DNA of 54,263 bases from Acidimicrobiia bacterium (GTDB lineage Bacteria > Actinomycetota > Acidimicrobiia > IMCC26256 > PALSA-610): contig JADGOO010000037.1 of the NCBI GenBank assembly GCA_017882905.1, positions 1 to 54,263 on the forward strand, written 5' to 3'. The position numbers and the translations under genes were made by a program. The notes beneath the pieces were generated by a model. The model was not told the DNA's origin and did not search any database. It saw only the letters and a list, made by a program, of their open reading frames with translations. Below are positions 1,294-19,327 of this stretch, in pieces; position 1 is the stretch's first letter, and every line of letters begins with the position of its first letter.

Positions 1294-1779
1294 TCAGCCG
1301 AGGTACAGCACGAGGCTGCCGGCGCCGTAGCCCTCGACGGCGACCTCGTAGGCGCGCCGTCCACGCGGCTGGCGCCACAGCTGCTTGAGCTCATCCGTCA
1401 GCTGGCCCGGGAGCACATGCACCGTTCCAAGGCGCAGGTGCTTCGTGAACTCGCAGTTGAGGCACGTCGCCATGACGTTCAGCACCTCTCGGAAGCCTTC
1501 GAGGCTCGCGTCGAGCACGATGCGCTTCTCGTTGGCTTCCTGCACCGACGCCGCGGCGGCCTCGACCAACGCACCGCCGACCGAGTTGGCCACTGCCGGG
1601 TCGGCGTAGCCGATCACCGCGAGCTGGCCGTCGTCGGTCACGTACTCGGCGAACACTCCGGTCGCGTCGCGCTCAGGGTCGGGGGCATGCGTGCGCTTGA
1701 CACGCGTCGGCGCCGACGCGAGGTCCCCGAGCAACGTCTCGATGGCGTGCTCGTCGGGAGCCGGATAGTTCGTGGCCAT
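1294..1779 (-). CDS. 161-aa CheC/CheX-like protein with ExxN motif, paired with CheY
   Basis: No named family is recognised with certainty. The 161-aa soluble protein is a clear paralogue of the 161-aa product at 23468-23953: both start with a helix containing LLGDL and end with Y-x-V-x-V-x-x-YGAG-x-L. Helix 80-105 contains E98-V-L-N101, the ExxN spacing used by CheC, CheX and FliY phosphatases to hydrolyse CheY-P, and the segment before it (VIGYADPAVANSVGGALVE) could match the strand-helix preceding that motif. I infer a divergent CheC/CheX-fold protein acting on the adjacent receiver. It starts 6 nt after the upstream cheY stop and is the last gene of the minus-strand operon. Confidence 0.6.
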   Translation of the reverse strand: MATNYPAPDEHAIETLLGDLASAPTRVKRTHAPDPERDATGVFAEYVTDDGQLAVIGYADPAVANSVGGALVEAAAASVQEANEKRIVLDASLEGFREVLNVMATCLNCEFTKHLRLGTVHVLPGQLTDELKQLWRQPRGRRAYEVAVEGYGAGSLVLYLG

Positions 1780-1785
1780 GATCTG

Positions 1786-2145
1786 CTACACGAACGGAGC
1801 GAGGCACCGCGTGAAGTCGTCGGCGCCGAACGGCTTCGTGATCATGAAGGCCGCTCCGGCGTCGAACGCCCGGTCCTTGAAATCGGGAGAGCTCTCGGAG
1901 GTCACGAAGCCCAGCGGCACCGTGACGCCCTCGGCGCGCAGCGCCTCGAGGAGCTCGATGCCGGTCATCTCCGGCATGTTCCAGTCGGACAGGACTACGT
2001 CGGGTGCCGCGGCGCGGATCGCTTCGAGCGCCTCGCGCCCGTTCTCGGCTTCGACGATCTCGCAACCTTCGAAGCCGGCCTGCGCGACATGGCGTTTCAC
2101 GATCATTCGCATCGCGCGACTGTCGTCAACGATCAAGATCTTCAT
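1786..2145 (-). CDS. cheY: Chemotaxis response regulator CheY
   Basis: This stand-alone receiver domain of 119 aa has all catalytic residues: the acidic pair D7-D8, phosphoacceptor D54 in SDWNMPEMTG, T82 in FVTSE and K104 in TKPF. CheY proteins are phosphorylated by CheA and carry the signal to the flagellar switch. The start overlaps the stop of the upstream cheX-like gene by 4 nt (ATGA at 2142-2145), implying translational coupling of receiver and phosphatase. It is one of three CheY-like proteins here; the one at 5449-5823 shares the DWNMP core. Which of them drives the switch cannot be told from sequence. Confidence 0.92.
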   Translation of the reverse strand: MKILIVDDSRAMRMIVKRHVAQAGFEGCEIVEAENGREALEAIRAAAPDVVLSDWNMPEMTGIELLEALRAEGVTVPLGFVTSESSPDFKDRAFDAGAAFMITKPFGADDFTRCLAPFV

Positions 2146-2627
2146 GCGATCACCGCTGCTTTGCTCGCGCGCTCGTAGATCTCCACGGAGAACACCGATG
2201 CGCCACGCTGATAGGTCACGCCGACCGCCGGAGTCGCCCCGGGGATCCCGAGCAACAAGTGCGACCCCTGCACCACGGTCGGCAGCGACAACGCTGTCGT
2301 GGCAGGGAGGAGCGGTTTCACATTGCCGGCGATCATGTTCGCGAGCTCGCCGAGTGCGTCGGCGAGCTCGTCGGCGGCCACACGGTCGACCTCGCAGCCG
2401 AACATCGCCGCGGCGGCTTCGTTGCCGATGCTCTCGTCGCAACCGATCACGAGCGCTCCCGACCACTCGCCGGTGAACTGCACCGAGGCGCCGATCGCAC
2501 AACGCGATGGCGTCACGTCGGAGACCGCATCGCGCGGCGCGATCTCACCGAGGTCGAGGCCGAGCATCATGCTCGTTGCTCCTTCGACGATCTCGGCGAG
2601 GTCGGGCTCACTCACGGTGACGTGCAC
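2142..2627 (-). CDS. cheX: CheX-type CheY-P phosphatase
   Basis: This 161-aa protein matches the CheC/CheX/FliY phosphatase fold. The catalytic helix 86-100 carries E94-L-A-N97 followed by MIAGNVKP, the family ExxN signature, and it is preceded by strands with the pattern FTGEWSGALVIGCD. CheX removes phosphate from CheY-P; no CheZ or separate CheC is seen here. The GTG start at 2627 is preceded by a strong AGGAGG six nt upstream. The stop overlaps the next cheY by 4 nt. An alternative call is a divergent CheC; the single ExxN motif and the length favour CheX. Confidence 0.75.
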   Translation of the reverse strand: MHVTVSEPDLAEIVEGATSMMLGLDLGEIAPRDAVSDVTPSRCAIGASVQFTGEWSGALVIGCDESIGNEAAAAMFGCEVDRVAADELADALGELANMIAGNVKPLLPATTALSLPTVVQGSHLLLGIPGATPAVGVTYQRGASVFSVEIYERASKAAVIA

Positions 2628-2654: not shown

Positions 2655-3428
2655 CTAGGTCGCCGGCTCGAAGATCTCACTGATGCGGATGGCGAACTCG
2701 TCGTCGACCACCACGATCTCGCCACGTGCGATCGGAGTGCCGTTCACGAGCACGTCGACCGGTTGGTTGGCGAGACGATCGAGGTCGATCACTGCGCCGG
2801 AACCAAGAGCCAGGACGTCGCGCACCGTCATACGGCAGCGCCCGATCTCCGCCGTGACGCCCATCTCGACGTCGGCGAGCACGAGCGGCGATTCTCCGGC
2901 CAGCATGATTCGGCCCGGCTGCGAGGTGCGACCACGGCCCGGCGTCGCGCGCGGCGCTGCTTCGGGCGCCTCATCGGCCGCGCCGAGGAACGCCACGAAG
3001 CACGCCACCGGCTGTGTGCCGTCGAGGATCGGGAACACGACCAGCTCGGCCGCGCCGGCCAACCAGTCGAGATCGCGTTCGAGCGCGCGCTGCACGTCGA
3101 GTCGCTGCGAGGCGACCGAGCCGAGCGTGACGGCCGCGGCTTCGAGACCGGGCCGGCACGCGCTGGAGAACATCTCGTCGGCCGCGGAGGCCTCGAGGGA
3201 TTCTCCGAACGCCGCGGTTGCGACGACGGCCACGCTGCCCGCCGCGACTCCGTCGCTGGTGAACGACATCACCACGACGCGCAGATGGTCGTCGCGGAGC
3301 ACGTCGTGGACCGAGGCGCGGGGCATTCCCACCGCGAGGATCGTGTCGGGTCCGAGCGCGTCCTCGAGCGCGGTCACGCAGGCCAGCGGCGCGCCTGGGT
3401 CGGCCAAGAGTGCGGGCGACAACGTCAT
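2655..3428 (-). CDS. FliN-family switch protein, second copy
   Basis: This 257-aa protein is a paralogue of the fliN product at 13441-14316. The last 80 residues form a SpoA (FliN/FliM C-terminal) domain: DVEMGVTAEIGR, MTVRDVLAL, GAVIDLDRLANQPVDVLV and NG-x-x-IARGEIVVVDDEFAIRI. The first 170 residues form a separate domain shared with the paralogue (ILAVGMP, then a strand-helix pattern and VVFPILDGTQPV), distantly like the CheC/FliY fold but without an ExxN motif. FliN builds the C-ring. The ATG at 3428 was chosen for its GGAGG and because the shared domain begins just after it; upstream residues of the open frame look non-coding. Its place inside a chemotaxis operon suggests a CheY-P-contacting or alternative C-ring subunit. 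Confidence 0.82.
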   Translation of the reverse strand: MTLSPALLADPGAPLACVTALEDALGPDTILAVGMPRASVHDVLRDDHLRVVVMSFTSDGVAAGSVAVVATAAFGESLEASAADEMFSSACRPGLEAAAVTLGSVASQRLDVQRALERDLDWLAGAAELVVFPILDGTQPVACFVAFLGAADEAPEAAPRATPGRGRTSQPGRIMLAGESPLVLADVEMGVTAEIGRCRMTVRDVLALGSGAVIDLDRLANQPVDVLVNGTPIARGEIVVVDDEFAIRISEIFEPAT

Positions 3429-3501
3429 TGGGAAGTTCCTCCAAGCCGACCATTCGTGAATCGGCACAGAACAAGGCTGGTTGAGAGGCAGATCGGGTGC
3501 A

Positions 3502-4317
3502 TCAGCGGGGCCGATACCAGATGGCGCGGCCTTCACGCTCCGTGACATAGCCGTCGTGGACGTTCGACAGGGTCTCGGCCGACCCGAGGAAGAGGTAGCC
3601 ATCGGGAGCGAGCACGCGCTTGATCCTGTCGAGCAAGGTGCGCCGTGTCGGCACGTCGAAGTAGATGAGCACGTTGCGCAGGAATACGACGTCGAAGCGG
3701 TCGAGCGTCGGCCAGGGCGCGATGAGGTTCAGCTGCGCGAAGTCGACCATCGCCCGGAGCTCCGGCTTGACCCGCCACGCCAGCCCGTCGCGATCGAAGT
3801 GCCGGCTGAGCATGTTCGCGGGGAGGCCCCGGTTCACCTCGAGCTGGGTGTAGCCCGCGGAGCGCGCCTTTTCGAGGACGGTCTCGGTGATGTCGGTCCC
3901 CCAGATCTTCGCGTCCCACCTGGCCATGTCGGGTATCTGTTCGCGCATCACCATCGCGATCGAGTACGCCTCCTGGCCGGTCGATGCGGCGGCGCTCCAC
4001 ACGCGCAGTCGGTGGGTCGCAGCCCTCGAGCGCGCGAGCGCGGGCAGTACCGCGTCGGCCAACCCGCCGAACGGGTGCACATCGCGAAAGAACGATGTCT
4101 CGTTCGTCGTGAGCGCTTCGACGACCTTCGTGCGCAGCTCCGGGGAGCCTCGACGCAGCTGGTCGACCACGGCACTGATGTCTTCGAGCCCGGCGGCCCG
4201 GGCGACCGGCGAAAGGCGCGCCTCGATCAAGTAGTTCTTGTTCTCGCCGAGCACGATCGCGGCTTCGCGCTTGATGAGCTCGCGCACGTAGAGGAGATCG
4301 GAGCTGGAAGCGGCCAT
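3502..4317 (-). CDS. cheR: Chemotaxis protein methyltransferase CheR
   Basis: CheR transfers methyl groups from S-adenosylmethionine to glutamates of chemoreceptors. The 271-aa product has the N-terminal helical domain (1-75), the TNETSFFRD loop, a SAM-binding motif reading VWSAAASTGQEAYSIAM, an acidic strand end (IWGTDI), and FLRNVLIYFD followed by YLFLGSAETL, all characteristic of CheR. The start at 4317 shares one base with the cheB stop (TGATG), so the long upstream open frame is not coding. No C-terminal receptor-tethering TPR region is present. Confidence 0.93.
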   Translation of the reverse strand: MAASSSDLLYVRELIKREAAIVLGENKNYLIEARLSPVARAAGLEDISAVVDQLRRGSPELRTKVVEALTTNETSFFRDVHPFGGLADAVLPALARSRAATHRLRVWSAAASTGQEAYSIAMVMREQIPDMARWDAKIWGTDITETVLEKARSAGYTQLEVNRGLPANMLSRHFDRDGLAWRVKPELRAMVDFAQLNLIAPWPTLDRFDVVFLRNVLIYFDVPTRRTLLDRIKRVLAPDGYLFLGSAETLSNVHDGYVTEREGRAIWYRPR

Positions 4318-5435
4318 CAGCTCGTCCTCGCGCGCAGCTCGGCCGGGCGAACGGTTGGGCGAACGGCCGGGCGGCCGATCGCGGTGCGGCGCACGAGCTC
4401 GGGCACGACCTCGGCGAGCGGCAACACGCGCTGGGCGAGACCGGCACGCACCACGGTGCCCGGCATCCCCCACACCACGCTGGTCTCTTCGTCCTGGGCG
4501 ATCACAAGACCACCCGCATCGGCGATCGCCTGTGCGCCACCCGACCCGTCGGTGCCCATGCCCGTGAGCACGAATCCACATACGTGCGAGCCGAACACGG
4601 CGACCGCCGAACGGAACAACGGATCGGCGGAAGGTCGACACGAGTGCTCAGGGGGCGCGTCGTTCAGCACGGTCACGACCTTCGTACCGACACGTGCCAC
4701 TTCGAGATGACGACCGCCGGGCGCGATGTAGACGTTGCCGGCAAGCACCGGCTCACCGGCGACGGCCTCGCGCACGTGCACGTTCGCGGCACGGTCGAGC
4801 CGCTCGGCGAGCAGCCGGGTGAACGTCGGCGGCATGTGTTGCACCACGAGGATCGGCACGCCGATCTCGCGAGGGATGGCCGGAACGATGTCTTCGAGCG
4901 CTCGGGGACCGCCGGTCGACACAGCCACGACGACGCAGTCGACGCGCTGCGCCTGGCGCGGCGCAGGCGAGGCGCCGCGCGGTCGCACCGCCGGGAGACC
5001 CGGTGCGCCGGGCGAGACACGGGCGGCGCGAGCGCCGAGGGCGAGCAGCTTCGGGATGAGCGAGCCGCGCACCTGCGCGCGCGCCCCGGTGAGGCCTCCC
5101 GGCCCACTGGGCTTGGCCACGAAGTCGGATGCGCCGAGCGAGAGCGCTTCGAGCGTGGCCGCACCACCCTCCACGGTCAGCGTGGAGAACATGACGATCG
5201 GCAGCCGCGGGTGCTCCCGGCGCAGCGCGGCGACCGCCTCGAGCCCGTTCATCACGGGCATCTCGACGTCGAGCGTCACCACATCGGGGCGCAGCTCGTT
5301 GGCGAGCTCGACGGCCCGACGGCCGTTCTCGGCGATCCCCACAACGCTCAGGCCGGGCTCGTTGTTGATCACGTCGGCGACCAGACGGCGGATGACGGCC
5401 GAGTCGTCGGTGACGAGCACCTTGATGTCTCTCAC
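4317..5435 (-). CDS. cheB: Protein-glutamate methylesterase CheB
   Basis: This 372-aa protein has the usual two CheB domains. The receiver (1-125) has the acidic pair D10-D11, phosphoacceptor D56 in TLDVEMPVMNG and K at FVAKP. An alanine/proline-rich linker joins it to the C-terminal methylesterase (about 165-350) with the serine in VVAVSTGGP, the histidine in VVQHMPP and the aspartate in LTGMGTDGS. CheB demethylates and deamidates receptors, opposing CheR, and is activated by CheA phosphorylation. It overlaps cheR by one base and lies 13 nt after cheY. CheD is not seen in the window. Confidence 0.94.
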   Translation of the reverse strand: MRDIKVLVTDDSAVIRRLVADVINNEPGLSVVGIAENGRRAVELANELRPDVVTLDVEMPVMNGLEAVAALRREHPRLPIVMFSTLTVEGGAATLEALSLGASDFVAKPSGPGGLTGARAQVRGSLIPKLLALGARAARVSPGAPGLPAVRPRGASPAPRQAQRVDCVVVAVSTGGPRALEDIVPAIPREIGVPILVVQHMPPTFTRLLAERLDRAANVHVREAVAGEPVLAGNVYIAPGGRHLEVARVGTKVVTVLNDAPPEHSCRPSADPLFRSAVAVFGSHVCGFVLTGMGTDGSGGAQAIADAGGLVIAQDEETSVVWGMPGTVVRAGLAQRVLPLAEVVPELVRRTAIGRPAVRPTVRPAELRARTS

Positions 5436-5448
5436 GGCTGCCTTGGCT

Positions 5449-5823
5449 CTAGGTGGCCGAGGCGCGCACGAGGGCGACCTTGTCGGCCAGCACTTGCGGG
5501 GTGAACGGCTTCATCACGTACTCATCGGCACCGGCAGCGAGCGCGGCGTCGATGCTTTCACTCGACGTCTCACTCGTCACCATGATCAAGGACATCGCCT
5601 CGTAACAACGCTCGCCGCGAACGGCCCGCACGAACTCCACGCCGGACATCACGGGCATGTTCCAGTCGACGAAGGCCACATCCGGAAGCGGCGCGGATTC
5701 GAGCGCTGTCAGGCCCTCGGCACCGTTGCCCGCTTCTGTGAACTCGTCGAAGCCGCATTCGAGGAGCGCGCGGCGCAAGATCATGCGCATCGCCCTCGAG
5801 TCGTCAACGATCAGCGCCCTCAC
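5449..5823 (-). CDS. cheY: Chemotaxis response regulator CheY
   Basis: This 124-aa stand-alone receiver has a complete catalytic set: D7-D8 in IVDDSRAMR, D53 in FVDWNMPVMSG, a threonine in MVTSET and a lysine in YVMKPF. The GTG at 5823 was chosen because GGAGG lies seven nt upstream; an in-frame ATG eight codons earlier would place that Shine-Dalgarno inside the gene. It follows the receptor gene by 88 nt and precedes cheB by 13 nt, a classical adaptation cluster. It is close in sequence to the receiver at 1786-2145, pointing to duplication. Confidence 0.9.
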   Translation of the reverse strand: MRALIVDDSRAMRMILRRALLECGFDEFTEAGNGAEGLTALESAPLPDVAFVDWNMPVMSGVEFVRAVRGERCYEAMSLIMVTSETSSESIDAALAAGADEYVMKPFTPQVLADKVALVRASAT

Positions 5824-5911
5824 CGATACCTCCGAGTAGCCGCCCACCGGCTCATCGAGCAGCCGATCGAGCGCGTTTCGTGTCTTGGTCCCTCACGGCG
5901 GTCCGTACTGC

Positions 5912-7468
5912 TCAGATCTCGAACTGTCCCACGAGCTCGCGCAGGCTGAGCGACATCGACGCGAGATCGCCGGCCGAAGCGAGGGTCTGACTCGCGCCTT
6001 GCGCGGCTTCTTGCGCGGCGGTCGCTACGCCAGTGATGCTGCGCGCGATCTCGGCCGTTCCGCTGGCCGCTTCGCTGATACTGCGGCCGATCTCGTTCGT
6101 GGTGACCGATTGCTCTTCCACCGCCGCCGCGATCGCGCTCTGGAGCGCATTGATGCGATCGATGATCGTCATGATCTCGCCGACCGATCCGATCGCCTGG
6201 CGAGTGTCGGCCTGGATGGTGGTGATCCGCTGCGAGATGTCCTCGGTGGCCCGCGTGGTGCTCGATGCGAGCTCCTTCACCTCGTTGGCGACCACCGCGA
6301 AGCCCTTGCCGGCATCGCCGGCCCGAGCGGCTTCGATCGTCGCGTTGAGCGCAAGCAGGTTCGTCTGCTCGGCGATCGATGTGATCACGCCCACAACGTT
6401 GCCGATCTCGGTGCTGCTGTGATCGAGCCGACCGATGTTGTCGTTCACCGTCTGCGCCATCGACGCGGCCTCGAGCGCCACACCGGCAGCGTCGCTCGCG
6501 CTCTTCGAGATCTCGTTGATGCTCGCCGAGAACTCCTCCACCGCGGCCGCGACCGTGTTCACGATCGCGCTGACCTGCTCGCTCGCGGCGGAGACCACAC
6601 CCGACTGCGTCGAGGTTTCTTCGGCGCTTCCGGCCATCTGATTGCTCACGGCCGAGAGCTCGTCGGACGCACCCGCGAGCGTCTGCACCGTGGCGTCGAT
6701 CGTGCCAAGGGCGTCACGCATCGCGCGCAGCGCAGTGTTGAGCGACGTGGCCATCTCGCCGATCTCGTCGTCCGAGGTGACATCCAGCTCGGTGGAGAGC
6801 TTGCGCTTTGCCACATCGCCGAGGAGCCCGACGGTCTTGCGCAACGGCACTGTGATGGACCGGCTGATCCGCCATCCGAGGAGCACCACGATGGCCGTGG
6901 CGATCAGGATGGCGACGACGATCTCACGCTTCGTGGTGTCGGCCGTGGCCTGCGAGGTTCGCGCGATCTGAGCGGCCTGATCCTGGAGATGCTTCGAGAG
7001 GGAATCGATCCTCGGCGTCACGTCGTTGAAGGCTTGTTGAAATGCATCGAGCGTGGTGTTCCCGGTCGCAGCCGTGTTCGCCGCGGCGACGAGCGCGGCA
7101 ATCGGCGCTTCGAGGTCACCTGCCTCCCGGCTCAACGCCGGTGACACATTGGCGGCCTTGACCTCGGCGACCTTGGCCACCAGCGTCGCTTGGTCGTCGT
7201 GGAGCGCCGCGATCGCCGGATCGTGCTGCGGCGTGCCGGCGTAGCGCTGCGCCATGAGCACATCGGACTGGACGTTGTCGTGCGACGCGTCGACCTCGGC
7301 CATCGCCGCCTGGCCGCTGTTGGCCGCTTCCACACCGCGCAGCCCGCTGCTCATCGAGTTCGTTCCGCGGGTGCCGACCACGCCGACCACGAGGCCGACG
7401 ACGAGCGCGAGCGCGCTCAGTGCCGCGAGCTTGCGAGCAACGGTCCAGCGCAGCTTGGTGAAGTTCAT
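5912..7468 (-). CDS. Methyl-accepting chemotaxis protein
   Basis: This 518-aa transmembrane receptor has a basic N-terminus and first membrane helix (about 10-33), an alanine-rich periplasmic helical sensor (about 35-180), a second membrane helix ([16 protein letters not shown]), a HAMP domain and a cytoplasmic coiled-coil. The signalling hairpin tip reads [18 protein letters not shown], nearly invariant in MCPs, followed by [15 protein letters not shown]. The ligand is unknown. No C-terminal CheR-tethering pentapeptide is present. The ATG at 7468 gives a normal inner-membrane start with GGAG upstream; the longer open frame upstream is antisense to cheA. It is the first gene of the minus-strand operon and has a sigma-28-like promoter at 7519-7545. 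Confidence 0.93.
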
Positions 7469-7684: not shown

Positions 7685-10018
7685 ATGGACGAGGAGACCG
7701 ACGAGCTGCTCGCCGAGTTCCTGGTCGAGAGCTTCGAGAACCTGGATGAGATCGACCAGGACCTCGTGAGCCTCGAACAGACGCCCGATGCGACCGACAT
7801 CCTCCAGCGGATCTTCCGCGCGTTCCACACGATCAAGGGCACCTGCGGGTTCCTCGGATACGAGACGCTCGGCGCCGTCACCCACGCGGCGGAGACGCTG
7901 CTCGCGCGACTGCGCGACGGTGCGATGGCGTACGACGCCGAGGTCGCCAGCGCGCTCCTGCGGTCGACCGATGCCGTTCGTGAGCTGCTCACCGTGATCG
8001 AGCGCACGAAGGAAGAGGGTTCCGACGAGCACCTCGACCTGATCGCCGAGCTCCACCATCTGGCCGAGCGCACCGCCGCGCACGACGCGGCTCCTTCGAC
8101 CGACGTCCAGCTCCAGGCCGACGACGACGCCGAGCCGGGCCCCCGCCTCGGTGAGCTCCTCGTGGAGCGGGGCGTGACCACCGAGGCCGACGTCGCGATC
8201 GCGTTGGTCCGCCAGGCCGACCTCGGCGATCCTCGCCCGATCGGCGAAGTGCTCATCGACGCCGGCGCCGTCGACCCTGAAGACGTGCGCTCCGCGCTGT
8301 CGAGCCAGCAGCACACGCGCGCCGCCGACGCCACGCTACGCGTCGACGTGAGCCTGCTCGATTCGCTCGTCACGCTCGTGGGCGAGCTCGTGTTGACCCG
8401 CAACCAGATCCGCCGACTCACCGGCAACGACGGCGTCGACAGCACACTGGTGATCGCGGCCCAGCGGCTCAATGGCGTGACCGCCGAGCTCCAGTCGCAC
8501 GTGATGAAGACGCGCATGCAACCGATCGGCGCCGTGTGGTCGAAGCTGCCGCGCATCGTGCGCGATCTCGCCGTGCAGTGCGAGAAGGCGATCCGAGTCG
8601 ACATGCACGGTCAGGGAACGGAGCTCGACAAGGCGATCGTCGAAGCCATCCGCGACCCGCTCACGCACATGGTCCGCAACGCGGTCGACCATGGCATCGA
8701 ATCACCGGCAGAACGGGTCGCCGCCGGCAAGCCCGAGGAGGGCGTGCTCACGTTGCGTGCGTTCCACGAGAGCGGCAACGTGCACATCGAGATCGCCGAC
8801 GACGGTCGCGGCATCGACGTGACCAAGGTCAAGGCGAAGGCGGTGCGCCAACAGCTCATCACCGAAGACCAGGCCGCGCGGATGACGGACCGCGAAGCTG
8901 TGGATCTGGTCTTTCGGGCCGGCTTCTCGACCGCGGAAGCCGTGAGCAACCTGAGCGGACGCGGCGTGGGCATGGATGTGGTGCGCACCAACATCTCGCG
9001 CATCGGCGGCACCGTCGAATGCGACAACCACCCGGGTGCCGGGACCACGTTCAAGGTCAAGATCCCACTGACGCTCGCGATCGTGCCCGCGTTGATCACG
9101 CGTGGCGGCGGCGAACGATTCGCCGTGCCGCACGCCAACCTCGTGGAGCTCGTCGGCCTCGGCACCGAGTCGAGCCGCGCCATCGAGTCGGTGCAGGGCG
9201 CACCCGTCTACCGACTGCGCGACCGGATGCTGCCGATCGTGCACCTCAACGCGGAGCTGAACCTCACGCCGCCCGCGTCGGACACGCGCCGGAGCGCCGG
9301 CACGATCGTTGTCCTGCGGGCCGACGGTCATGAGTTCGGTCTCGTGGTCGACGAAGTGATCGACACCGAGGAGATCGTGGTCAAGCCCTTGCCGGCGCAC
9401 GTCGACGCCGTTCCCGTCTTCAGTGGGTGCACGGTGATGGGCGACGGTGACGTTGCGCTCATCCTCGACGTTCGCGGCATCGCCGAGGTCGCCGGCGTGC
9501 TCGATCCGGACGGCGCGGTCAACGCGAACGCGGAGACCACCACGACCGAATCCAACTCAACCGCCGACCCCGTGCTCATCGTGCGCGTCGACGCGACCAC
9601 GCGGGCTGCCCTCGCGCTCGACAACATCGAACGGCTCGAAGTGTTCGATCCGACGCGCGTGGAGCTCGCGGCCGGCCATCCGGTCGTGCAGTACCGAGGC
9701 GCGCTGCTCCCGTTGCTCGATCTCTCCGCCACAGTCGGAGCCGCAACACAACGCGATTCGAGCGACGAGCTCGTGGTCGTGGTGTACGCCGACGGCCACC
9801 GCTCGGTGGGCCTGGTGATCGAGCGCGTCGTCGACATCGTGGAAGAGCACACGACGAACTACGAGGTGCCGTACCGCTTCGGCGTCGTTGGTTCGACGAT
9901 CGTTCGAGGCGACGTCACCGACCTGATCGACGTCGCCGCACTCGTCGACGCGATGCCGGCATCGTTCGCAGCACTGGTGAACGGCGCGATCCAGCTGGAG
10001 GCAAGCGATGCAGTCTGA
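7685..10018 (+). CDS. cheA: Chemotaxis histidine kinase CheA with GspE-N-like domain and two CheW domains
   Basis: This 777-aa CheA begins with an HPt domain (1-105; phosphorylated H48 in [13 protein letters not shown]). Residues 152-210 form two repeated helical hairpins ([10 protein letters not shown]..., [11 protein letters not shown]...) resembling the N-terminal domain of GspE/PilB ATPases and occupy the place of the usual P2 domain. Then come the P3 dimerisation helices (about 217-285, [15 protein letters not shown]), the HATPase ([29 protein letters not shown]; about 325-465), and two CheW-like domains in tandem (about 465-605 and 625-770). CheA phosphorylates CheY and CheB on receptor signals. 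The ATG at 7685 starts the HPt directly; upstream frame is antisense to the MCP. The stop overlaps cheW by 11 nt. Confidence 0.93.
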
Positions 10019-10448
10019 ACGAACGCTGTGCACACTCCTGGTCGACGACCAGCTCTACGGCGTGGACGTGCTCCGCGTGCAGGAGATCATTGGCGAACAA
10101 CGGCTCACACCAGTGCCGCTGGCCAGCTCACGGGTGGTCGGCCTGTTGAACCTGCGCGGCGACATCGTGCCGGCGATCAGCTTGCGCGGCACGCTCGGAC
10201 TCGCGCCCGCCAAGCCCGGCACGAAGTGCGCGCACGTAGTCTTGCGCACCCGCGACGGCCTGGCCAGCGTGATCGTCGACGCGATCGGTGATGTGCTCGA
10301 AGCCGACGAAGCGCGGTTCGAGGAGCCGCCCGACACGTTGTCCGGCAGCTCGCGCGAGCTCGTCAGCGGAGTGCTCAAGCTCGATGACCGCCTCTTGCTC
10401 GAGCTCGACGTCGATCGCGTGCTCGCGGTCGATCGTCGCGCGGCCTGA
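10008..10448 (+). CDS. cheW: Chemotaxis coupling protein CheW
   Basis: This 146-aa CheW domain links receptors to CheA. It shows the two SH3-like sub-barrels: LCTLLVDDQLYGVDVLRVQ at the start, VPLASSRVVGLLNLRGDIVPAISL (split here by its conserved NLRG), and a second half with VVLRTRDGLASVIVDAIGDV and SGVLKLDDRLLLELDVD. It overlaps the cheA stop by 11 nt and precedes a receptor gene by 15 nt, so cheA, cheW and the second receptor are one transcription unit. Length is normal for the family. Confidence 0.92.
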   Translation: MQSERTLCTLLVDDQLYGVDVLRVQEIIGEQRLTPVPLASSRVVGLLNLRGDIVPAISLRGTLGLAPAKPGTKCAHVVLRTRDGLASVIVDAIGDVLEADEARFEEPPDTLSGSSRELVSGVLKLDDRLLLELDVDRVLAVDRRAA

Positions 10449-10463
10449 GAAACGGAATTCGAC

Positions 10464-12416
10464 ATGGAGAACGTCTTTCATCCCGCGGAACGGTTCATGG
10501 CCCGCTTCAACCTGGGCGTGAAGTTCATGGTGTTGGGCGCGATCCTCCTCGCACCACTGGCCTACGTCACGTGGCAGTACCGCAACGCCCGTGAGTACAA
10601 CGTTCGCATTGCGATCGACGAGCATCACGGCAACACCTACATGGCGCCCGCGATCGGGCTCTTCAGTGCCGAGGTCGACGCGCGCAGCGCCGCGGTGCGC
10701 GGCGCCGATCGCTCCGCGATCGATCAGGCGATCCACCAACAGGTAGCCGCGATCGACTCGATCGTGGCGCGCTACGCCAAGCAGTACACGAACGAGAAGT
10801 CGTGGGCCGCGGCGAAGCAGGCCTTGAGCGCCGCCCAGGCGGCCACCGGCGACCCGGCCGCGGTGTTCGCGCAATGGAACGCGGCCACGCTGGCGCTCTA
10901 CACCGACATCCAGACGGTGTCGGGCGGTTCGACGCTGGTGCTCGATCCGCAGCTCGACACGTACAACATGATGGACGCGAACACGAACCGCGCCCTGCTC
11001 GTGATGGACACCGGCGGCCAAGCGGCCGACTTCGCCACGATGGTGAGCCGCGGCCAGACTGCACGCTCCCAGGACGAGGTCATCCAGCTCGCCTCGCTGC
11101 AGAGCAACACCACCACGCCGCTCGGTGTGATCGACGGCGAGTACGACGCGGCCTACGGCGCCACCAAGTGGAACGGCCTGAAGGCGGCCGTCGATCCCAG
11201 CCGTCGCCGGCTCGACGCCTCGACCGGCGCGCTGGTGACCGCAGCCGGCGGCTTCCTCAAGCACGCCAAGACAGCCGACTTCGCCACGCTCGGCGCGGCG
11301 GTGCGCGCCGACGCATCGGCGCTCGCGGTCCACGGCATCCCGGCGCTCGATCGCCTCCTCGACCAGCGCATCACCGGCTTCCGCGGGCCCGAACACCGCG
11401 TGTACCTGGTGTTCAGCCTGTTCGTCGCGCTCGCCCTGTACCTGTTCGTTGCCATGATCCGCTCGGTGCGCAACGGGATGCGCCGAGTGCTCGGCGCGCT
11501 CGAGGCTGCGGCCGACGGTGACTTCACCGCCAAGGCCGACGTCGACACGAACGACGAGATCGGCGCGACGGCCCGGGCGATCGATCACATGCAGGAACGC
11601 GTGTGCGTGGCGATTGCCGACGTCGCCGAACGCGCCGAGGTCCTCGCGATCGCGGCGGGATCCGTGGCCGACGCGTCGGGCCGGATCGCCACCGCGGCGC
11701 AAGGCACAGCCGAAGAAGCGGCGCGCTCGGCCGAGCACGCCACCGCCGTCGGAGGCGATGTCGAGAGCGCCGAGGGTGGCACCAACCAGCTCGGTGCAGC
11801 CATCTCCGAGATCGCGCAGAGCGCGACCGCGGCAACCATCGTCGCCGGTGAGGCGGTCGAGACCACCCGATCGGCCGAGGCGACGATCTCGTCGCTCGCC
11901 CGGTCGTCGGCGGAGATCGACGACGTGATCGCGCTGATCACCACGATCGCCGACCAGACGAACCTGCTCGCCCTGAACGCCACGATCGAGGCGGCCCGCG
12001 CCGGCGAGGCCGGTCGCGGCTTCGCGGTGGTGGCCAACGAGGTCAAGGAGCTCGCGGCGCAGACTCAGCACGCGACCGACGGGGTCCGCCAGCGCGTCGC
12101 CGAGATCCAGTCCGACTCACAGGGCGCCGCCCGGTCGATCGCGCTCATCACCGACGTGGTCGACAAGGTGAGCAGCTACCAGACCACCATCTCGTCGGCC
12201 GTGGAGGAACAGACCGCCACGACCCACGAGATCGCGTCGACGTTCGAGCGGATCGTGCAGCGGAGCCGTGACATCGGCGAGGCCATCGACACGGTGGCGA
12301 GGCTCGCTCAGGCCACCGATGACGACTCCGCCGCGCTGACCGCCGACGCCGGGCGGCTGTCCGACGAGGCAGCCGGTCTGCGCGAGCTGATCTCGCGCTT
12401 TCGCGTCGCAGTCTGA
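10464..12416 (+). CDS. Methyl-accepting chemotaxis protein
   Basis: This 650-aa receptor has a first membrane helix at about 20-38 ([17 protein letters not shown]), a large helical extracytoplasmic sensor (about 40-310), a second helix near 312-332 ([19 protein letters not shown]), a HAMP domain with the [13 protein letters not shown] pattern, and an MCP signalling domain whose tip reads [18 protein letters not shown] followed by [15 protein letters not shown]. The sensor is much larger than in the receptor at 5912-7468, so a different ligand is likely. No terminal CheR-binding pentapeptide is seen. It follows cheW by 15 nt and precedes fliM by about 50-110 nt, depending on the fliM start. 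Confidence 0.93.
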
Positions 12417-12487: not shown

Positions 12488-13408
12488 GTGGCAACCGCGA
12501 CCAGCCGGAAAGGCGCAAAGCCGGGTGCGATGGCATTCGACTTCCGCCGGCCGAACAAGTTCAGCCGTGATCACGTCCGGGCCTTCCAGATCGTGCACGA
12601 GACCTTCGCCCGCCAGCTCTCGACAGTGCTGGCGACCACGCTCCGCGCGGTCGCGCACGTGACGCTGACCTCCGTCGAGCAGCTCACCTACGACGAGTAC
12701 GTGCGGTCGCTGCCGAACCCGTCGTACATGGTGATCCTGTCGCTGAACCCGCTTCCCGGCGCGGCCGTGCTGCAGCTTCCGCTTCCGATCGCGTTTGCGG
12801 CGATCGACCGGCTGCTCGGCGGTAGCGGCGACGCGCTGAGCCCGAAGCGTCCGCTCACCGAGATCGAGAGCAACCTGATGCGCGGCCTCGTCGGCCGGGC
12901 GCTGCGCGAGCTCGAGTACGCCTACGAGACGCTCGTGCGCGTCGAAGTCGAAGTCGTCCAACAAGAGTTCAACCCGCAGTTCGCGCAGATCGCCGCGCCG
13001 AGCGACATGGCCTTGGCCGTGAACTTCGAGACGCGCATCGGCGAGAAGCGCGGAACGTCGAGCATCTGCATCCCGCACACAACGATGCAGCCGGTGCTCG
13101 AGAGCCTCGCAAGTCAACAGCTCTTCGCCGACCGCTCGAGTCGCGACCCCTACGAGTGGGCGCGCGCGCTCGAAGAGGCGATCGGCGGCGTGTGCGTGGA
13201 GCTCGCGGTGCGGTTCGAATCGGTTGCGCTCGCGTCGCAGGAGATCATCGACCTGCAAGTGGGCGACATCGTTCCCCTCGAACACCCCGTCGACCAGCCG
13301 CTGACGGTCTCGGTCGGCGACGTGCCCTGCTACGAGGTCGTCACCGGTCGGCGCGGCAAGCGCCTCGCCGGACTCGTCGTCGGCAACCACACCACCAGAT
13401 TGCGCTGA
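12488..13408 (+). CDS. fliM: Flagellar motor switch protein FliM
   Basis: FliM forms the middle of the C-ring and normally receives CheY-P. The core is clear: FDFRRPNKFSRDHVRAFQIVHETFARQL, which I shorten to its FDFRRPNKFS start and HETFARQL end; then VEQLTYDEYVRSLPNP, DRLLGGSGD and the C-terminal SpoA-like domain (DIVPLEHPVDQPLTVSVGDVP). The conserved N-terminal CheY-binding peptide of the EIDALL type is absent, also when the frame is read back to 12419. The start is uncertain: GTG 12464, 12482 and 12488 and ATG 12530 are in frame. I list 12488 because a sigma-28-like box would start transcription there; none has a good Shine-Dalgarno. It is followed 32 nt later by fliN. Confidence 0.85.
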   Translation: MATATSRKGAKPGAMAFDFRRPNKFSRDHVRAFQIVHETFARQLSTVLATTLRAVAHVTLTSVEQLTYDEYVRSLPNPSYMVILSLNPLPGAAVLQLPLPIAFAAIDRLLGGSGDALSPKRPLTEIESNLMRGLVGRALRELEYAYETLVRVEVEVVQQEFNPQFAQIAAPSDMALAVNFETRIGEKRGTSSICIPHTTMQPVLESLASQQLFADRSSRDPYEWARALEEAIGGVCVELAVRFESVALASQEIIDLQVGDIVPLEHPVDQPLTVSVGDVPCYEVVTGRRGKRLAGLVVGNHTTRLR

Positions 13409-13440
13409 GGCGAAGCCGTGTCACGAGCAGTAGGAGCCAG

Positions 13441-14316
13441 ATGAGCATCATCGGCGAGCTGTCGAGCAACAACCAGGTCGCGATGGCCGTGGCCGCGGCG
13501 CTCGAACAGGCGATGGGCAGCGATGTCATCCTCGCTGTCGGCCTGCCGAAGAACGTGCCGCCGACCGTCGATCACCTCCCCGCGGGTGACGTGCGGGTCG
13601 TCACCGGCGAGATCGTCTCGGGTGCCGACGGTGGCGTGCACCTCGCGCTTTCGAGCGACCTGGCCCGTCTCCTCGAGCGGCGCGCCGACGACGAAGAGCT
13701 CACCACCGCACTCGGAGGCGTGTTCGACATCACCGCCACGGCGATGGCGCGCGTCGACGGCATCGACCTCGCGTTCGACGAGCCGATCGAGACGCCGGCC
13801 GACGAGCTCACCGCGCCGGCCGAGGCCGACCACCAGTTCCTCGTGTACCCCTTGCTCGACGGGACCGAGCGCATCGCCACACTGGTCATCGAGATCGGCG
13901 CGCCCATGAGCGCAGCCGACCCGATGGTCCCCGAGACGCCCCTGGTGCGTGGCGTGTCGGCAGTCGCCGCCGCGCCCGTTCCGCACCGCCCCCAGGTGCA
14001 GCCCGAGCACGTGAGCACCCACGAGTTCCCGCCGCTGCACGACACCGCCATCTCGCTCGTCGACCCGCGGCCGCTCTCGCTGCTGCACGACGTGGAGATG
14101 GGTGTGACCGCCGAGCTCGGACGCCGCCGCATGACGGTGCGCGACCTGCTCGGCCTGGCACCCGGCGCCGTGATCGAGCTCGACCGCGCGGCCGGCAGCC
14201 CCGTCGACGTGCTCGTGAACGGCACGCTGATCGCCCGCGGCGAAGTTGTCGTGATCGACGAAGAGTTCGGGATTCGCGTCTCGGAGATCGTCGCCGGCGG
14301 AGAAGTGACGGTCTGA
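13441..14316 (+). CDS. fliN: Flagellar motor switch protein FliN (long form)
   Basis: This 291-aa protein ends in a SpoA domain (about 210-290: LLHDVEMGVTAELGRRRMT, GAVIELDRAAGSPVDVLVNG, IARGEVVVIDEEFGIRVSE), the C-ring base subunit FliN. Ordinary FliN is about 100-140 aa; here some 170 extra N-terminal residues form a domain shared with the paralogue at 2655-3428, followed by a proline/valine-rich linker. The extra domain has an alternation of strands and helices that could be CheC/FliY-like, but the helix ELTTALGGVFDITATAM lacks the E and N of the ExxN motif. The ATG at 13441 has TAGGAG at a good distance. fliO follows after 4 nt. Confidence 0.88.
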   Translation: MSIIGELSSNNQVAMAVAAALEQAMGSDVILAVGLPKNVPPTVDHLPAGDVRVVTGEIVSGADGGVHLALSSDLARLLERRADDEELTTALGGVFDITATAMARVDGIDLAFDEPIETPADELTAPAEADHQFLVYPLLDGTERIATLVIEIGAPMSAADPMVPETPLVRGVSAVAAAPVPHRPQVQPEHVSTHEFPPLHDTAISLVDPRPLSLLHDVEMGVTAELGRRRMTVRDLLGLAPGAVIELDRAAGSPVDVLVNGTLIARGEVVVIDEEFGIRVSEIVAGGEVTV

Positions 14317-16842: not shown

Positions 16843-17973
16843 GTGGCGGGCGGCGCAGACAAGTCACAGAAGACCGAGAAGCCCACCGCGCGCCGCAAGA
16901 AGGAACAGCGCGAGAAGGGCCAGATCGCCAAGTCGCCCGAGCTCGTCACGTGGACGAGCGTGCTGCTCTCCACGGTGCTCTTGCAGACCACGGTGTCGCG
17001 CGGTGCCTCGACGTTCCGCCCGATGCTCGACCAGATGGGCCAGCTGATCGCCAAGCCGAGCGAGCCGCGAGCCGGCGCGTTCTTCGGGCATGCCATCGCA
17101 CAAGGCGCGCTCGTCGCCGCGCCGCTCGTGCTCGGCCTGATGCTCCTCAGCATCGTGGTGAACCTCGGTCAGGTGGGACTGAAACCTTCGAGCAAGCGGC
17201 TCAAGCCCCAGTTCAGCCGGCTCAACGTGCTCAAGGGCTTGAAGCGCATGGGAAGCCCGAACGCGTGGTGGGAGCTGGCCAAGGCACTGATCAAGGTGAC
17301 CGTGCTCGCGGCGATCGTCTACCCCACGGTCGCGTCGATGGCGAAAACGGTCGCCACCCAAGGAGGCTCCCTCTTCTGGATCGCCGGCGAGGTCGCCCAG
17401 ACCGCCATCACCGTCATGCGCAACATCGCCGCCATCGGCCTCGTGATCGCCGGCATCGACTACATCGTGCAGCGCCGCCGCGTGAACAAAGACATGATGA
17501 TGACGAAGCAAGAAGTGCTCGATGAGCACAAGCAGCACGAAGGCGACCCGCGCGTCCGTCAGGCGATCCGCTCTCGCCAACAGGCGGTCAGCCGCAACCG
17601 GATGATCGGCATGGTGTCACGGGCCGACGTCGTCGTGGTCAACCCGACCCACTACGCCGTGGCGTTGCGCTACGAGTCGGCACGAGGCGCGCCCGAGGTG
17701 CTCGCCAAAGGCGCCGACCACCTCGCGGCGCGCATCCGCCTCGAAGCCACGCGCAACAACGTGCCGATCGTTCACGAACCCGCGCTCACTCGTGCGCTGT
17801 ACAAGGCCGTGCCGGTGGGTGCGCGCATCCCGATGGAGCTGTACGAAGCCGTCGCGCATCTGCTCGCGTTCGTGTTCGCGCTCCGCGCCCGGGGTCGCGC
17901 CGACGGGTACCACGAGTTCGGTCGGCCGCTCGTGCAAGACCCGCCGGCGCCGAAGCCCGTCAGCGTTGCATGA
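16843..17973 (+). CDS. flhB: Flagellar export switch protein FlhB
   Basis: FlhB controls export substrate specificity through self-cleavage. The 376-aa product has the lysine-rich N-terminus (KTEKPTARRKKEQREKGQ), four membrane helices in the first 220 residues, and the cytoplasmic domain with the autocleavage motif N267-P-T-H followed by YAVALRYE. The C-terminus carries the expected LAKGADHLAARIR and IPMELYEAVAHLLAFVFALR. GTG at 16843 follows fliR closely. The last 14 nt overlap, convergently, the ArsR-family gene on the other strand, so the flagellar operon appears interrupted here before flhA. Confidence 0.95.
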   Translation: MAGGADKSQKTEKPTARRKKEQREKGQIAKSPELVTWTSVLLSTVLLQTTVSRGASTFRPMLDQMGQLIAKPSEPRAGAFFGHAIAQGALVAAPLVLGLMLLSIVVNLGQVGLKPSSKRLKPQFSRLNVLKGLKRMGSPNAWWELAKALIKVTVLAAIVYPTVASMAKTVATQGGSLFWIAGEVAQTAITVMRNIAAIGLVIAGIDYIVQRRRVNKDMMMTKQEVLDEHKQHEGDPRVRQAIRSRQQAVSRNRMIGMVSRADVVVVNPTHYAVALRYESARGAPEVLAKGADHLAARIRLEATRNNVPIVHEPALTRALYKAVPVGARIPMELYEAVAHLLAFVFALRARGRADGYHEFGRPLVQDPPAPKPVSVA

Positions 17974-18292
17974 GGGTGCGCAGTCGTGCGAGGCGTTCGT
18001 CCCACTCCGCACCGACCACACCCATCCACTCGGCCGCGTCGCGCAGTGGTTCGGGCGTGAACCGGTAGACCACGCGGCGACCGTCGCGCTCGCCGGTGAC
18101 GAGACCAGCGGCTTCGAGCACGCCGAGGTGCTTCACGATCGCTTGGCGGCTCACTGGCGCGCGCACGGCGAGCTCGCTCGCCGTGGCCGGGTGATGCGCC
18201 AGCTGGTCGACGACGGCGCGGCGGGTACCGTCGGCGAGCGCGGTGAACACCGCGTCGAGGCGCGGGTCGGGTCTAGGTGCGCGCGAGGGCAC
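17960..18292 (-). CDS. ArsR-family transcriptional regulator
   Basis: This 110-aa winged-helix repressor shows the ArsR pattern: LDAVFTALADGTRRAVVDQLA, then ATASELAVRAPVSRQAIVKHLGVLEAAGLV with the recognition helix SRQAIVKHL, and a wing ERDGRRVVYRF. No metal-binding cysteines are visible, so it is of the type that accompanies SRPBCC proteins rather than a metal sensor. The GTG at 18292 was chosen because residues before it look non-coding; it overlaps the end of the upstream SRPBCC gene by about 20 nt, implying coupling. It probably controls its own operon through the palindrome at 18666-18687. Confidence 0.88.
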   Translation of the reverse strand: MPSRAPRPDPRLDAVFTALADGTRRAVVDQLAHHPATASELAVRAPVSRQAIVKHLGVLEAAGLVTGERDGRRVVYRFTPEPLRDAAEWMGVVGAEWDERLARLRTLMQR

Positions 18293-18650
18293 GGAACCGC
18301 GACCGATCAGCCGGCGCCGACGGCAGCCAGTCGAGCGCGAGCGTGGTCTCGGTGACGCGCAGCACCGTCTCGTCGCCGTCGGGTTCGAGGCGGAGCTCCA
18401 CGGCCGACGGGGCACGATCACCGTGCACCGGCGCCCAGGTGAACGAGAGGCGTGTGGCGGGCTCGACCACGTGGACCACGCCGATGCGCTCGTCGCCGTT
18501 GGCGTCGACCACGCGCAAACGGCCTCCCGGGCGGGCGTCGAACTCCACCTCGGCGTCGAACCAGGCGCTGAGGCCGGCCGGATCGGTGAGCAGCGGCCAG
18601 AGCTCGTCGGCGGCCGCCGCGAAGCGCTCGGTTCGTTCGATCGTCGTCAT
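18273..18650 (-). CDS. SRPBCC (AHSA1/START-like) domain protein
   Basis: The 125-aa product is a single hydrophobic-cavity domain of the AHSA1-like SRPBCC superfamily: ERTERFAAAADELWPLLTD at the start, LSAWFDAEVEFDARPGGRL, a central EPATRLSFTWAP and a C-terminal TVLRVTETTL. Such proteins often form a unit with an ArsR regulator, as here; their ligands are usually unknown. The ATG at 18650 has a clear GGGAGG. It is transcribed away from the ClpP-like gene, from which it is separated by a 68-nt control region. Confidence 0.88.
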   Translation of the reverse strand: MTTIERTERFAAAADELWPLLTDPAGLSAWFDAEVEFDARPGGRLRVVDANGDERIGVVHVVEPATRLSFTWAPVHGDRAPSAVELRLEPDGDETVLRVTETTLALDWLPSAPADRSRFRALART

Positions 18651-18665
18651 CCGGCCTCCCAAAGA

Positions 18666-18687
18666 TGTGCAACCCAAGTATTGCACA
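18666..18687. promoter_or_regulatory. Palindromic operator candidate TGTGCAA-N8-TTGCACA
   Basis: The two 7-nt arms (18666-18672 and 18681-18687) are a perfect inverted repeat; another TTGCACA lies at 18725-18731. The palindrome covers an extended -10 candidate for the minus-strand SRPBCC-arsR unit (TGCAATACT on the minus strand) and the -35 (TTGCAC, 18681-18686) of the divergent ClpP-like gene. An ArsR dimer bound here could block both promoters. Confidence 0.55.
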
Positions 18688-18710
18688 TGCGTCCCCGACG
18701 CGCGGATAAT
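18681..18710 (+). promoter_or_regulatory. Promoter of the ClpP-like gene; transcript probably leaderless
   Basis: TTGCAC (18681-18686), an 18-nt spacer and GATAAT (18705-18710). Only 8 nt separate the -10 from the ATG at 18719, so transcription should start at or within about 2 nt of the start codon. Confidence 0.6.
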
Positions 18711-18718
18711 CTGCAACC

Positions 18719-19327
18719 ATGCAGTTGCACATGGAGACCCAAGACGCGCCCGCGGCCTCGCCCCTCGCGCCGAACACGCTCGAGACCGAAGTCGTCAAGA
18801 TGCTGCTCGACCAGCGGCGGGTGATGCTCACCGGCGAGGTCACCGACGCGCTCGCGCACATGGTGTGCGCGCAGCTGCTCGTGGCCGCGCAACGCGCCGA
18901 CGCCGACCACCCGGTCGTGTTGATCATCAACTCGCCGGGCGGCAGCGTCGACGCCGGATTCGCGATCTACGACACGATGCAGACGCTGGGCGTACCGGTG
19001 GCGACGGTGTGCGTGGGCATCGCCGCGTCGATGGGCCAGTTCCTGTTGTGCGGCGGCACGCCCGGCTTGCGCTACGCACACCGCCACGCGCAGATCCTGA
19101 TGCATCAACCGCACGGCGCCGTGCAGGGCTTCGCCACTGACATCCGCATCCACGCTGACCACTTCGGTCGCCGCCGCCGGTTGATGGCCGAGCTCACGGC
19201 CAAGCACACCGGCCAGTCGGTCGACCAGGTGGAAGCCGACGCCGACCGCGACCACTGGTTCGACGCCGACGAAGCCCTCGCGTACGGCATGGTCGACCAT
19301 CTCGTCGACGGCCCCCTCGACCTCTAA
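18719..19327 (+). CDS. ClpP-family serine protease
   Basis: This 202-aa protein is a ClpP peptidase, the proteolytic ring of ATP-dependent Clp proteases. The catalytic triad is intact: serine in GIAASMGQFLL, histidine in LMHQPHGA and aspartate in DRDHWFDADEA. The INSPGGSVDAGFAIYDTM oligomerisation segment is also present. It stands alone, without clpX or a second clpP, between flhB and flhA, and shares a control region with the SRPBCC-arsR unit, so it is likely an accessory paralogue rather than the housekeeping copy. An in-frame ATG 12 nt downstream is a possible alternative start. Confidence 0.9.
   Translation: MQLHMETQDAPAASPLAPNTLETEVVKMLLDQRRVMLTGEVTDALAHMVCAQLLVAAQRADADHPVVLIINSPGGSVDAGFAIYDTMQTLGVPVATVCVGIAASMGQFLLCGGTPGLRYAHRHAQILMHQPHGAVQGFATDIRIHADHFGRRRRLMAELTAKHTGQSVDQVEADADRDHWFDADEALAYGMVDHLVDGPLDL

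Follow-up and report, generated by a model that had tools for sequence, protein, structure and literature searches.

A candidate c-di-GMP-binding MshEN domain between P1 and P3 of the chemotaxis kinase CheA in an Acidimicrobiia bacterium

The second messenger c-di-GMP decides between swimming and settling. To our knowledge, its known routes into chemotaxis all run via adaptors, receptors or the motor. As the accessible accounts describe it, MapZ feeds c-di-GMP into chemotaxis, as the CheA site proposed here would, but it does so as a PilZ-based adaptor on a methyltransferase; PilZ-bearing chemoreceptors (Cbp1) likewise bring c-di-GMP into chemotaxis, through the PilZ domain of the receptor instead of one in the kinase.

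Wang et al. defined the MshEN motif as RLGxx(LVI)(LVI)xxG(LVI)(LVI)xxxxLxxxLxxQ, present in two 24-residue copies with a short spacer (PMC5013675, accessible text). In MshE of V. cholerae (PDB 5htl), the domain is N-terminal on a pilus ATPase. PilF of T. thermophilus carries three tandem GSPII domains on its ATPase. It is reported in the available part of PMC11731258 that GSPII-B, with Lys/Leu at the Arg positions, binds c-di-GMP at 6 nM and that binding is abolished when both of its Gln are changed, and that GSPII-C, which departs from the consensus solely by a Pro at position 1 of motif II, binds with an affinity of about 500 nM, close to that of MshEN. GSPII-A, which is without both Gln, was described as non-binding (PMC12002112, accessible text). 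An isolated 64-residue helical subdomain was said to give NMR fingerprints that closely resemble those of the full domain (PMC12207366, accessible text).

The MshEN domain was mentioned together with CheA in one sentence of Wang et al. 2016, which names the same domain pair and, in the accessible text, offers neither a position nor a pocket analysis, and nothing on distribution or function (PMC5013675). No other statement of an MshEN-CheA fusion was found in the literature searched, so far as its texts are accessible, and, subscription papers and supplements aside, no experimental report on a CheA with MshEN or with direct c-di-GMP binding was found. A 2023 survey of CheA architectures, in its accessible part, describes CheAs without P2 as common and calls P2-less linkers unstructured in AlphaFold models; the words MshEN, T2SS, GSPII and c-di-GMP are all absent from its main text (PMC10782961). 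The kind of domain is already known, and what is new here is its spread, its all-or-nothing conservation and its CheA-type GDxR spacer.

The window, a stretch of 54,263 nucleotides from an Acidimicrobiia bacterium (contig JADGOO010000037.1), encodes a CheA of 777 amino acids at 7685..10018 (+) with the order P1 - MshEN - P3 - P4 - P5 - second CheW domain (translation and Pfam). The P1/Hpt domain (residues 7-99, 7703..7981, +; PF01627, E 2.1e-14) holds the phospho-acceptor motif HTIKG with His48 (7826-7828, +), which is invariant across 15 aligned CheAs. A low-confidence and probably flexible linker (about residues 132-153, 8078..8143, +) and the MshEN domain (residues 154-208, 8144..8308, +) are followed by the P3 dimerisation domain (H-kinase_dim, residues 216-276, 8330..8512, +; PF02895 and AlphaFold2 model), the P4 ATP-binding kinase domain (HATPase_c, residues 323-463, 8651..9073, +; PF02518, E 6.8e-19) and P5, the first CheW-like domain (residues 470-600, 9092..9484, +; PF01584, E 2.7e-37, in two stretches). 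The second of these Pfam stretches marks a second CheW-like domain at about residues 628-755 (9566..9949, +), with bounds taken from the model, in which strands span 628-748; by eye, such a domain after P5 is apparently present in several relatives too. The Hpt domain with its phospho-His, H-kinase_dim, HATPase_c, CheW and the located kinase motifs identify the protein as a CheA histidine kinase, and a genome-wide search with a CheA query gave it as the sole strong CheA match in its own genome.

The segment between P1 and P3 is a 55-residue tandem of MshEN/GSPII motifs. The NCBIfam model NF053729.1 (cyclic di-GMP-binding, MshE-related) matched residues 154-208 above its cut-off of 38 bits, scoring 42.5 bits for the full-length protein, 46.3 bits for the excised piece and 45.3 bits in the genome search; some CheA homologues fell under this cut-off (L034 with 33.0 bits, the CheA of genome G005 with 34.0 bits). 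When the excised piece was compared with PDB sequences by phmmer, T. thermophilus PilF came top (E 1e-10), followed by PilB ATPases (E 4e-4 to 9e-4) and MshE (0.0036). As judged from these sequence comparisons, the MshEN/GSPII match is well beyond chance. Pfam gave nothing above cut-off between P1 and P3, the best being DUF4388 with 16.2 bits against a cut-off of 25, so a scan with Pfam only would overlook the domain. The first-pass annotation had read residues 152-210, from base 8138, as two repeated GspE/MshE-type hairpins. Its coordinates were right, since residue 152 starts at 8138, and the hairpins were borne out as two 24-residue repeats with a 7-residue spacer and a predicted four-helix fold. 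The profile search that it had proposed returned neither a standard P2 nor an empty region, and gave an MshEN-type domain that the sequence search and the predicted fold confirmed.

Motif I (residues 154-177, 8144..8215, +; borders of both motifs after PMC5013675) has Arg154, Leu155, Gly156, Val170, Leu174 and Gln177 at its six ligand positions; R, L, G, L and Q of the consensus are kept and Val replaces Leu at position 17. The spacer ADLGDPR (7 residues, 178-184, 8216..8236, +) bears the CheA-type GDxR signature. Motif II (residues 185-208, 8237..8308, +) has Pro185, Ile186, Gly187, Val201, Leu205 and Gln208, with Glu188 at position 4; G, L and Q are kept, Ile and Val replace Leu, and Pro replaces Arg. 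Both motifs therefore hold Gly3 and Gln24 (Gly156 and Gln177, Gly187 and Gln208), and position 1, where Arg or Lys/Leu is expected, is Arg154 in motif I and Pro185 in motif II. The tandem motif is present with the deviations Thr165, Pro185, Ile186, Ala195, Val at position 17 of both motifs and a spacer of 7; Thr165 occupies position 12 of motif I, for which Wang et al. call for a hydrophobic residue in their relaxed motif.

Like MshE, the CheA domain has two 24-residue motifs in a four-helix bundle (predicted for CheA), Gly3 and Gln24 in each motif, and an Arg at the head of motif I (PMC5013675, accessible text). It differs in that it lies inside CheA, in having a spacer of 7 and Pro185 where MshE has a spacer of 5 and Arg38, and in the absence of the C-terminal MshEN subdomain, which provides one aspartate contact in MshE; the C-terminal subdomain of PilF GSPII-B is absent as well. 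PilF GSPII-C is the best sequence match; like the window CheA, it has a 7-residue spacer and a Pro as the first residue of motif II. Pro185 was considered as proof of lost binding, a reading that was dropped for two reasons: GSPII-C binds with Pro at the same position, and the non-CheA controls described below have Pro at motif II position 1 more often than any other residue (30/71). The affinity may be low, since Pro185 stands for Arg and Ile and Val stand for Leu at motif II positions 2 and 17; by analogy with GSPII-C, it is probably sub-micromolar.

The excised insert was folded by AlphaFold2 with 32 relatives and gave a model of four helices with a mean pLDDT of 83.9, a four-helix bundle superposable on c-di-GMP-bound structures. 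In Foldseek, rows 1-17 were all N-domains of MshE, PilF or PilB, and c-di-GMP-bound structures led. Against c-di-GMP-bound MshE (5htl) and PilF GSPII-B (8pdk and mutants), TMq was 0.76-0.79 and the rmsd mostly 1.1-1.3 Å over 58-59 columns; no Foldseek row reached E <= 0.001, the best being 4.6e-3 for this small helical domain. The best VIA-align Z was 10.5, followed by XpsE (7.9), apo PilF (6.8) and GSPII-A (3.7), with 4.5 for the best unrelated chain, all on a scale where values below about 13 can reflect a common arrangement of helical bundles. For the predicted model, the ligand-bound family members are well clear of unrelated chains in this score. The full-length AlphaFold2 model (mean pLDDT 73.1) has low confidence between P1 and the bundle (pLDDT below 50 at residues 132-151) and over about 10 residues before P3 (212-221), and it places the start of a P3 helix at residue 222, some 10 residues past the bundle; its pTM of 0.36 means that its interdomain geometry is not reliable.

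The linkers of related CheAs were scored for the tandem motif by the hydrophobic core, positions 10 and 20, and Gly3; positions 1 and 24 were left unused to avoid circularity. From 143 loci with a core match, the removal of four short matches (L058, L091, L102, L138) and of duplicates left 127 CheAs, and 126 were scored, as L163 is truncated at a contig end; for L066 the scored piece was not its linker, which itself shows no motif. The score was 11.7 or higher in 35 of the 127, including the window CheA, and 10.0 or lower in 91, with one unscorable, and these counts, like those of the class and phylum scans, give no prevalence because most loci were found with insert-containing queries. Both motifs end in Gln in all 35 domain-bearing CheAs, in two of which (L151, L152) motif II is one residue shorter. 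In 33 of these CheAs both motifs have the full 24 residues; all 33 agree at Gly3 and Gln24 in each motif and at Glu4 and Leu6 in motif II, and position 1 is variable (R, K, L, S, P, H, N, A or Q). Gly3 of both motifs is constant in 35/35, but Gly3 and the hydrophobic positions were used in the selecting score, so a fair test is possible only with Gln and position 1. In both motifs, most polar positions apart from the ligand Gln vary among the CheA domains.

For comparison, 71 non-CheA MshEN domains from the same class and the window genome, mostly in reading frames of pilus-ATPase size, were taken as controls. They comprise 29 newly fetched matches, 40 rows (every second lower-scoring one, down to about 38 bits) and two domains of the window genome, L001 and L003; the set under-represents weaker domains, and only L001 and L003, both PilB-type ATPases, were examined as whole proteins. 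Both Gln are kept in 35/35 CheA domains against 32/71 controls (Fisher p 1e-9). The difference held after clustering at 70% identity (28/28 against 22/52, p 3e-8) and at 50% identity (10/10 against 6/16, p 0.003). The fold can therefore do without these residues, which CheA retains. Both Gly3 are kept in 52 of the 71 controls. A degraded insert was not found among the 126 scored CheAs, in which the domain is either absent or has both Gln; CheAs with a decayed insert would still be recruited via P1 and P3, as the 91 insert-less ones were. The first-pass annotation had raised a link to c-di-GMP as possible, and this link is strengthened by the retention of both ligand Gln in all 35 CheAs found to bear the domain.

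As for the two ATPases of the window genome, L003 (G000:C42:16514-16666) has a decayed MshEN of 26.4 bits, with motif I lacking its final Gln, and L001 reaches 70 bits with a motif II that ends in Arg. The signature GDxR directly precedes motif II in 24 of the 35 CheA domains and in none of the 71 non-CheA domains; it is absent from the Gemmatimonadota, one planctomycete and a short-spacer group (L153-L159). This mark may reflect one ancestral acquisition. In six CheAs from one family of the phylum (L154-L159), a single residue lies between the MshEN motifs, against 5 in MshE.

Within the same order, the domain is present in the CheAs L005, L006, L007, L008, L010 and L011, and a low-complexity linker takes its place in L009 and L013 and, in the same class, in L012; by eye, the linker of insert-less CheAs looks low-complexity at that place. 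A search of genome contigs across phyla gave at least 80 loci. Among the matches listed, the 11 best-scoring loci (L034-L044) all carry the domain; by record titles, they are four Acidobacteriota (two Terriglobia, two 'Acidobacteria'), three Gemmatimonadota, one Planctomycetota, one 'uncultured actinobacterium', one Acidimicrobiaceae and one 'Proteobacteria' MAG. NF053729 matched 11 of the 77 scannable CheA N-halves at E <= 0.01, again among the matches listed. The scan of the class (296 genomes) added L127, and that of the phylum (296 genomes) added L143 and L145-L159. The 35 domain-bearing CheAs span at least five phyla by record titles. As 91 of the 126 scored CheAs lack the domain, a c-di-GMP input would be dispensable.

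On a quick-method tree of P3-P4 with 125 rows (L066 and L163 excluded), presence and absence of the domain require at least 19 changes on the best tree, of which at least 5 are forced by starred branches. Shuffled labels gave a mean of 30.8 changes, and none of 500 shuffles was as low as 19. Domain presence is clustered on this tree, and the domain was gained or lost several times among CheAs. The tree is weakly resolved, with 32 of 122 inner branches starred, so origins are uncountable on it and a single origin is neither shown nor excluded.

The gene cheA belongs to a chemotaxis cluster that also encodes CheW, CheR, CheB and CheX, together with two chemoreceptors, two CheY-like receivers and a FliN-like protein. 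Downstream are cheW (10008..10448, +; PF01584, E 1.1e-29) and a chemoreceptor with HAMP and MCPsignal (10464..12416, +; Pfam). On the opposite strand lie a second chemoreceptor of the same composition (5912..7468, -, start approximate; Pfam), a CheY-like receiver (5449..5847, -; PF00072), cheB (4317..5435, -; PF01339 and PF00072), cheR (3502..4329, -, start approximate; PF01739, E 2.5e-57), the phosphatase gene cheX (2142..2627, -; PF13690, E 4e-18) and a second CheY-like receiver (1786..2145, -, start approximate; PF00072, E 2.2e-26). Flagellar export genes, named by eye from translations, adjoin the cluster.

Some other genes of this region were observed. A 161-aa protein at 1297-1779 (-), between the CheY-like gene and a gene FliL-like by eye, has no Pfam match at E <= 0.01. 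Two FliN-like proteins at 2658-3602 (-), which matches FliMN_C in Pfam, and 13156-14316 (+) have long N-terminal parts and, by eye, closely similar C-terminal domains. The export genes are unusually interrupted at 17960-19327, where frames that by eye resemble an ArsR-type regulator, an SRPBCC-type protein and a ClpP-like protease separate the FlhB-like frame from the FlhA-like one.

The window genome has 35 GGDEF, 21 EAL and 2 PilZ matches. GGDEF genes occur in 38/38 further genomes, 23 with the domain in CheA and 15 with a CheA lacking a detected domain; the presence of GGDEF is therefore permissive and not diagnostic, and its use as evidence was dropped.

The fold of P2 differs from the MshEN fold. 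Between P1 and P3 of the window CheA, Pfam gave no P2 or CheY-binding match at E <= 1, in agreement with the earlier remark that P2 is not seen. The same remark placed the insert 'in place of P2', which stands as a matter of position between P1 and P3, where the likeness to the P2/CheY-binding domain, a separate family, ends. As an evolutionary replacement it does not stand: among the matches listed, none of the 77 related CheA N-halves, with or without the insert, had a Pfam P2/CheY-binding match at E <= 0.01. The idea that the insert is a P2 substitute was dropped, as P2 is missing in both kinds of relatives.

The NF053729 match, the fold, the 35/35 Gln and the GSPII-C-like Pro185 together make a working c-di-GMP input built into CheA the most likely explanation, one that we hold to be probable, with binding, direction and coupling all inferred. 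Alternatively, the bundle could dock CheY, CheB, a PilZ protein or some other partner and act as a P2-like tether that is nucleotide-free, as degenerate secretion-ATPase N-domains may be. Its position is that of P2 in E. coli CheA, its fold is that of the PilZ-bound N-domain of X. citri PilB (7lkm, 7lkn and 7lko are among the matches), and the genome has 2 PilZ matches. However, docking leaves the invariant ligand Gln unexplained while most other polar positions vary, and the related CheAs that lack both insert and P2 give no sign that a P2 substitute is needed; we consider this reading unlikely.

More doubtful still is a pocket for another cyclic dinucleotide, for example 3',3'-cGAMP or c-di-AMP, or for a linear dinucleotide. 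The departures from classical MshEN at position 1 and at some hydrophobic positions, together with the CheA-specific spacer type with its GDxR, would suit such a ligand. On the other side, MshE showed no detectable c-di-AMP binding and weaker binding of cGAMP (PMC5013675, accessible text), Gly3, whose backbone reads a guanine edge, is kept throughout the CheA domains (although it is part of the selecting score), and the genome has many GGDEF matches. It is very improbable that the domain is a vestigial or purely structural spacer between P1 and P3 without a regulatory role. Many related CheAs do have low-complexity linkers instead of the domain, but a neutral spacer is expected to decay, whereas the scored CheAs held no decayed copy and the ligand Gln are invariant across at least five phyla.

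In the favoured reading, in which the domain is a c-di-GMP input, one c-di-GMP would lie across both motifs with one guanine per motif. Gln177 and Gln208 would hold the ribose-phosphate, and Gly156 and Gly187, each with the next residue, would read the guanine edges. About 10 residues link the bundle to P3, and about 20, probably flexible, link it to P1, so ligand binding would alter the access of P1 to P4 or the seating of the P3/P4 dimer in the receptor array. At the cellular levels that MshEN domains sense, c-di-GMP would alter the contacts of the bundle with the P1 tether or the P3 helices. These contacts would set the level of CheA autophosphorylation or of transfer to CheY, and CheY-P at the motor would shift. 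In this way, the c-di-GMP pool would act directly on flagellar switching, with no separate PilZ adaptor in between.

We further propose, with the balance about even, that CheA itself is a c-di-GMP receptor in a broad, uncatalogued and mostly GDxR-marked group of CheAs, in which the messenger gates the kinase directly and the domain either disappears entirely or retains an intact pocket. By record titles, this group would take in Actinomycetota, Acidobacteriota, Gemmatimonadota, Planctomycetota and a proteobacterial MAG. If true, a c-di-GMP site in CheA would let the messenger act on the kinase directly, and it would supply a sensor domain to an enzyme described, in the accessible text of PMC10782961, as being without one. 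It would also give a reason why a stretch that is blank in Pfam is so well conserved.
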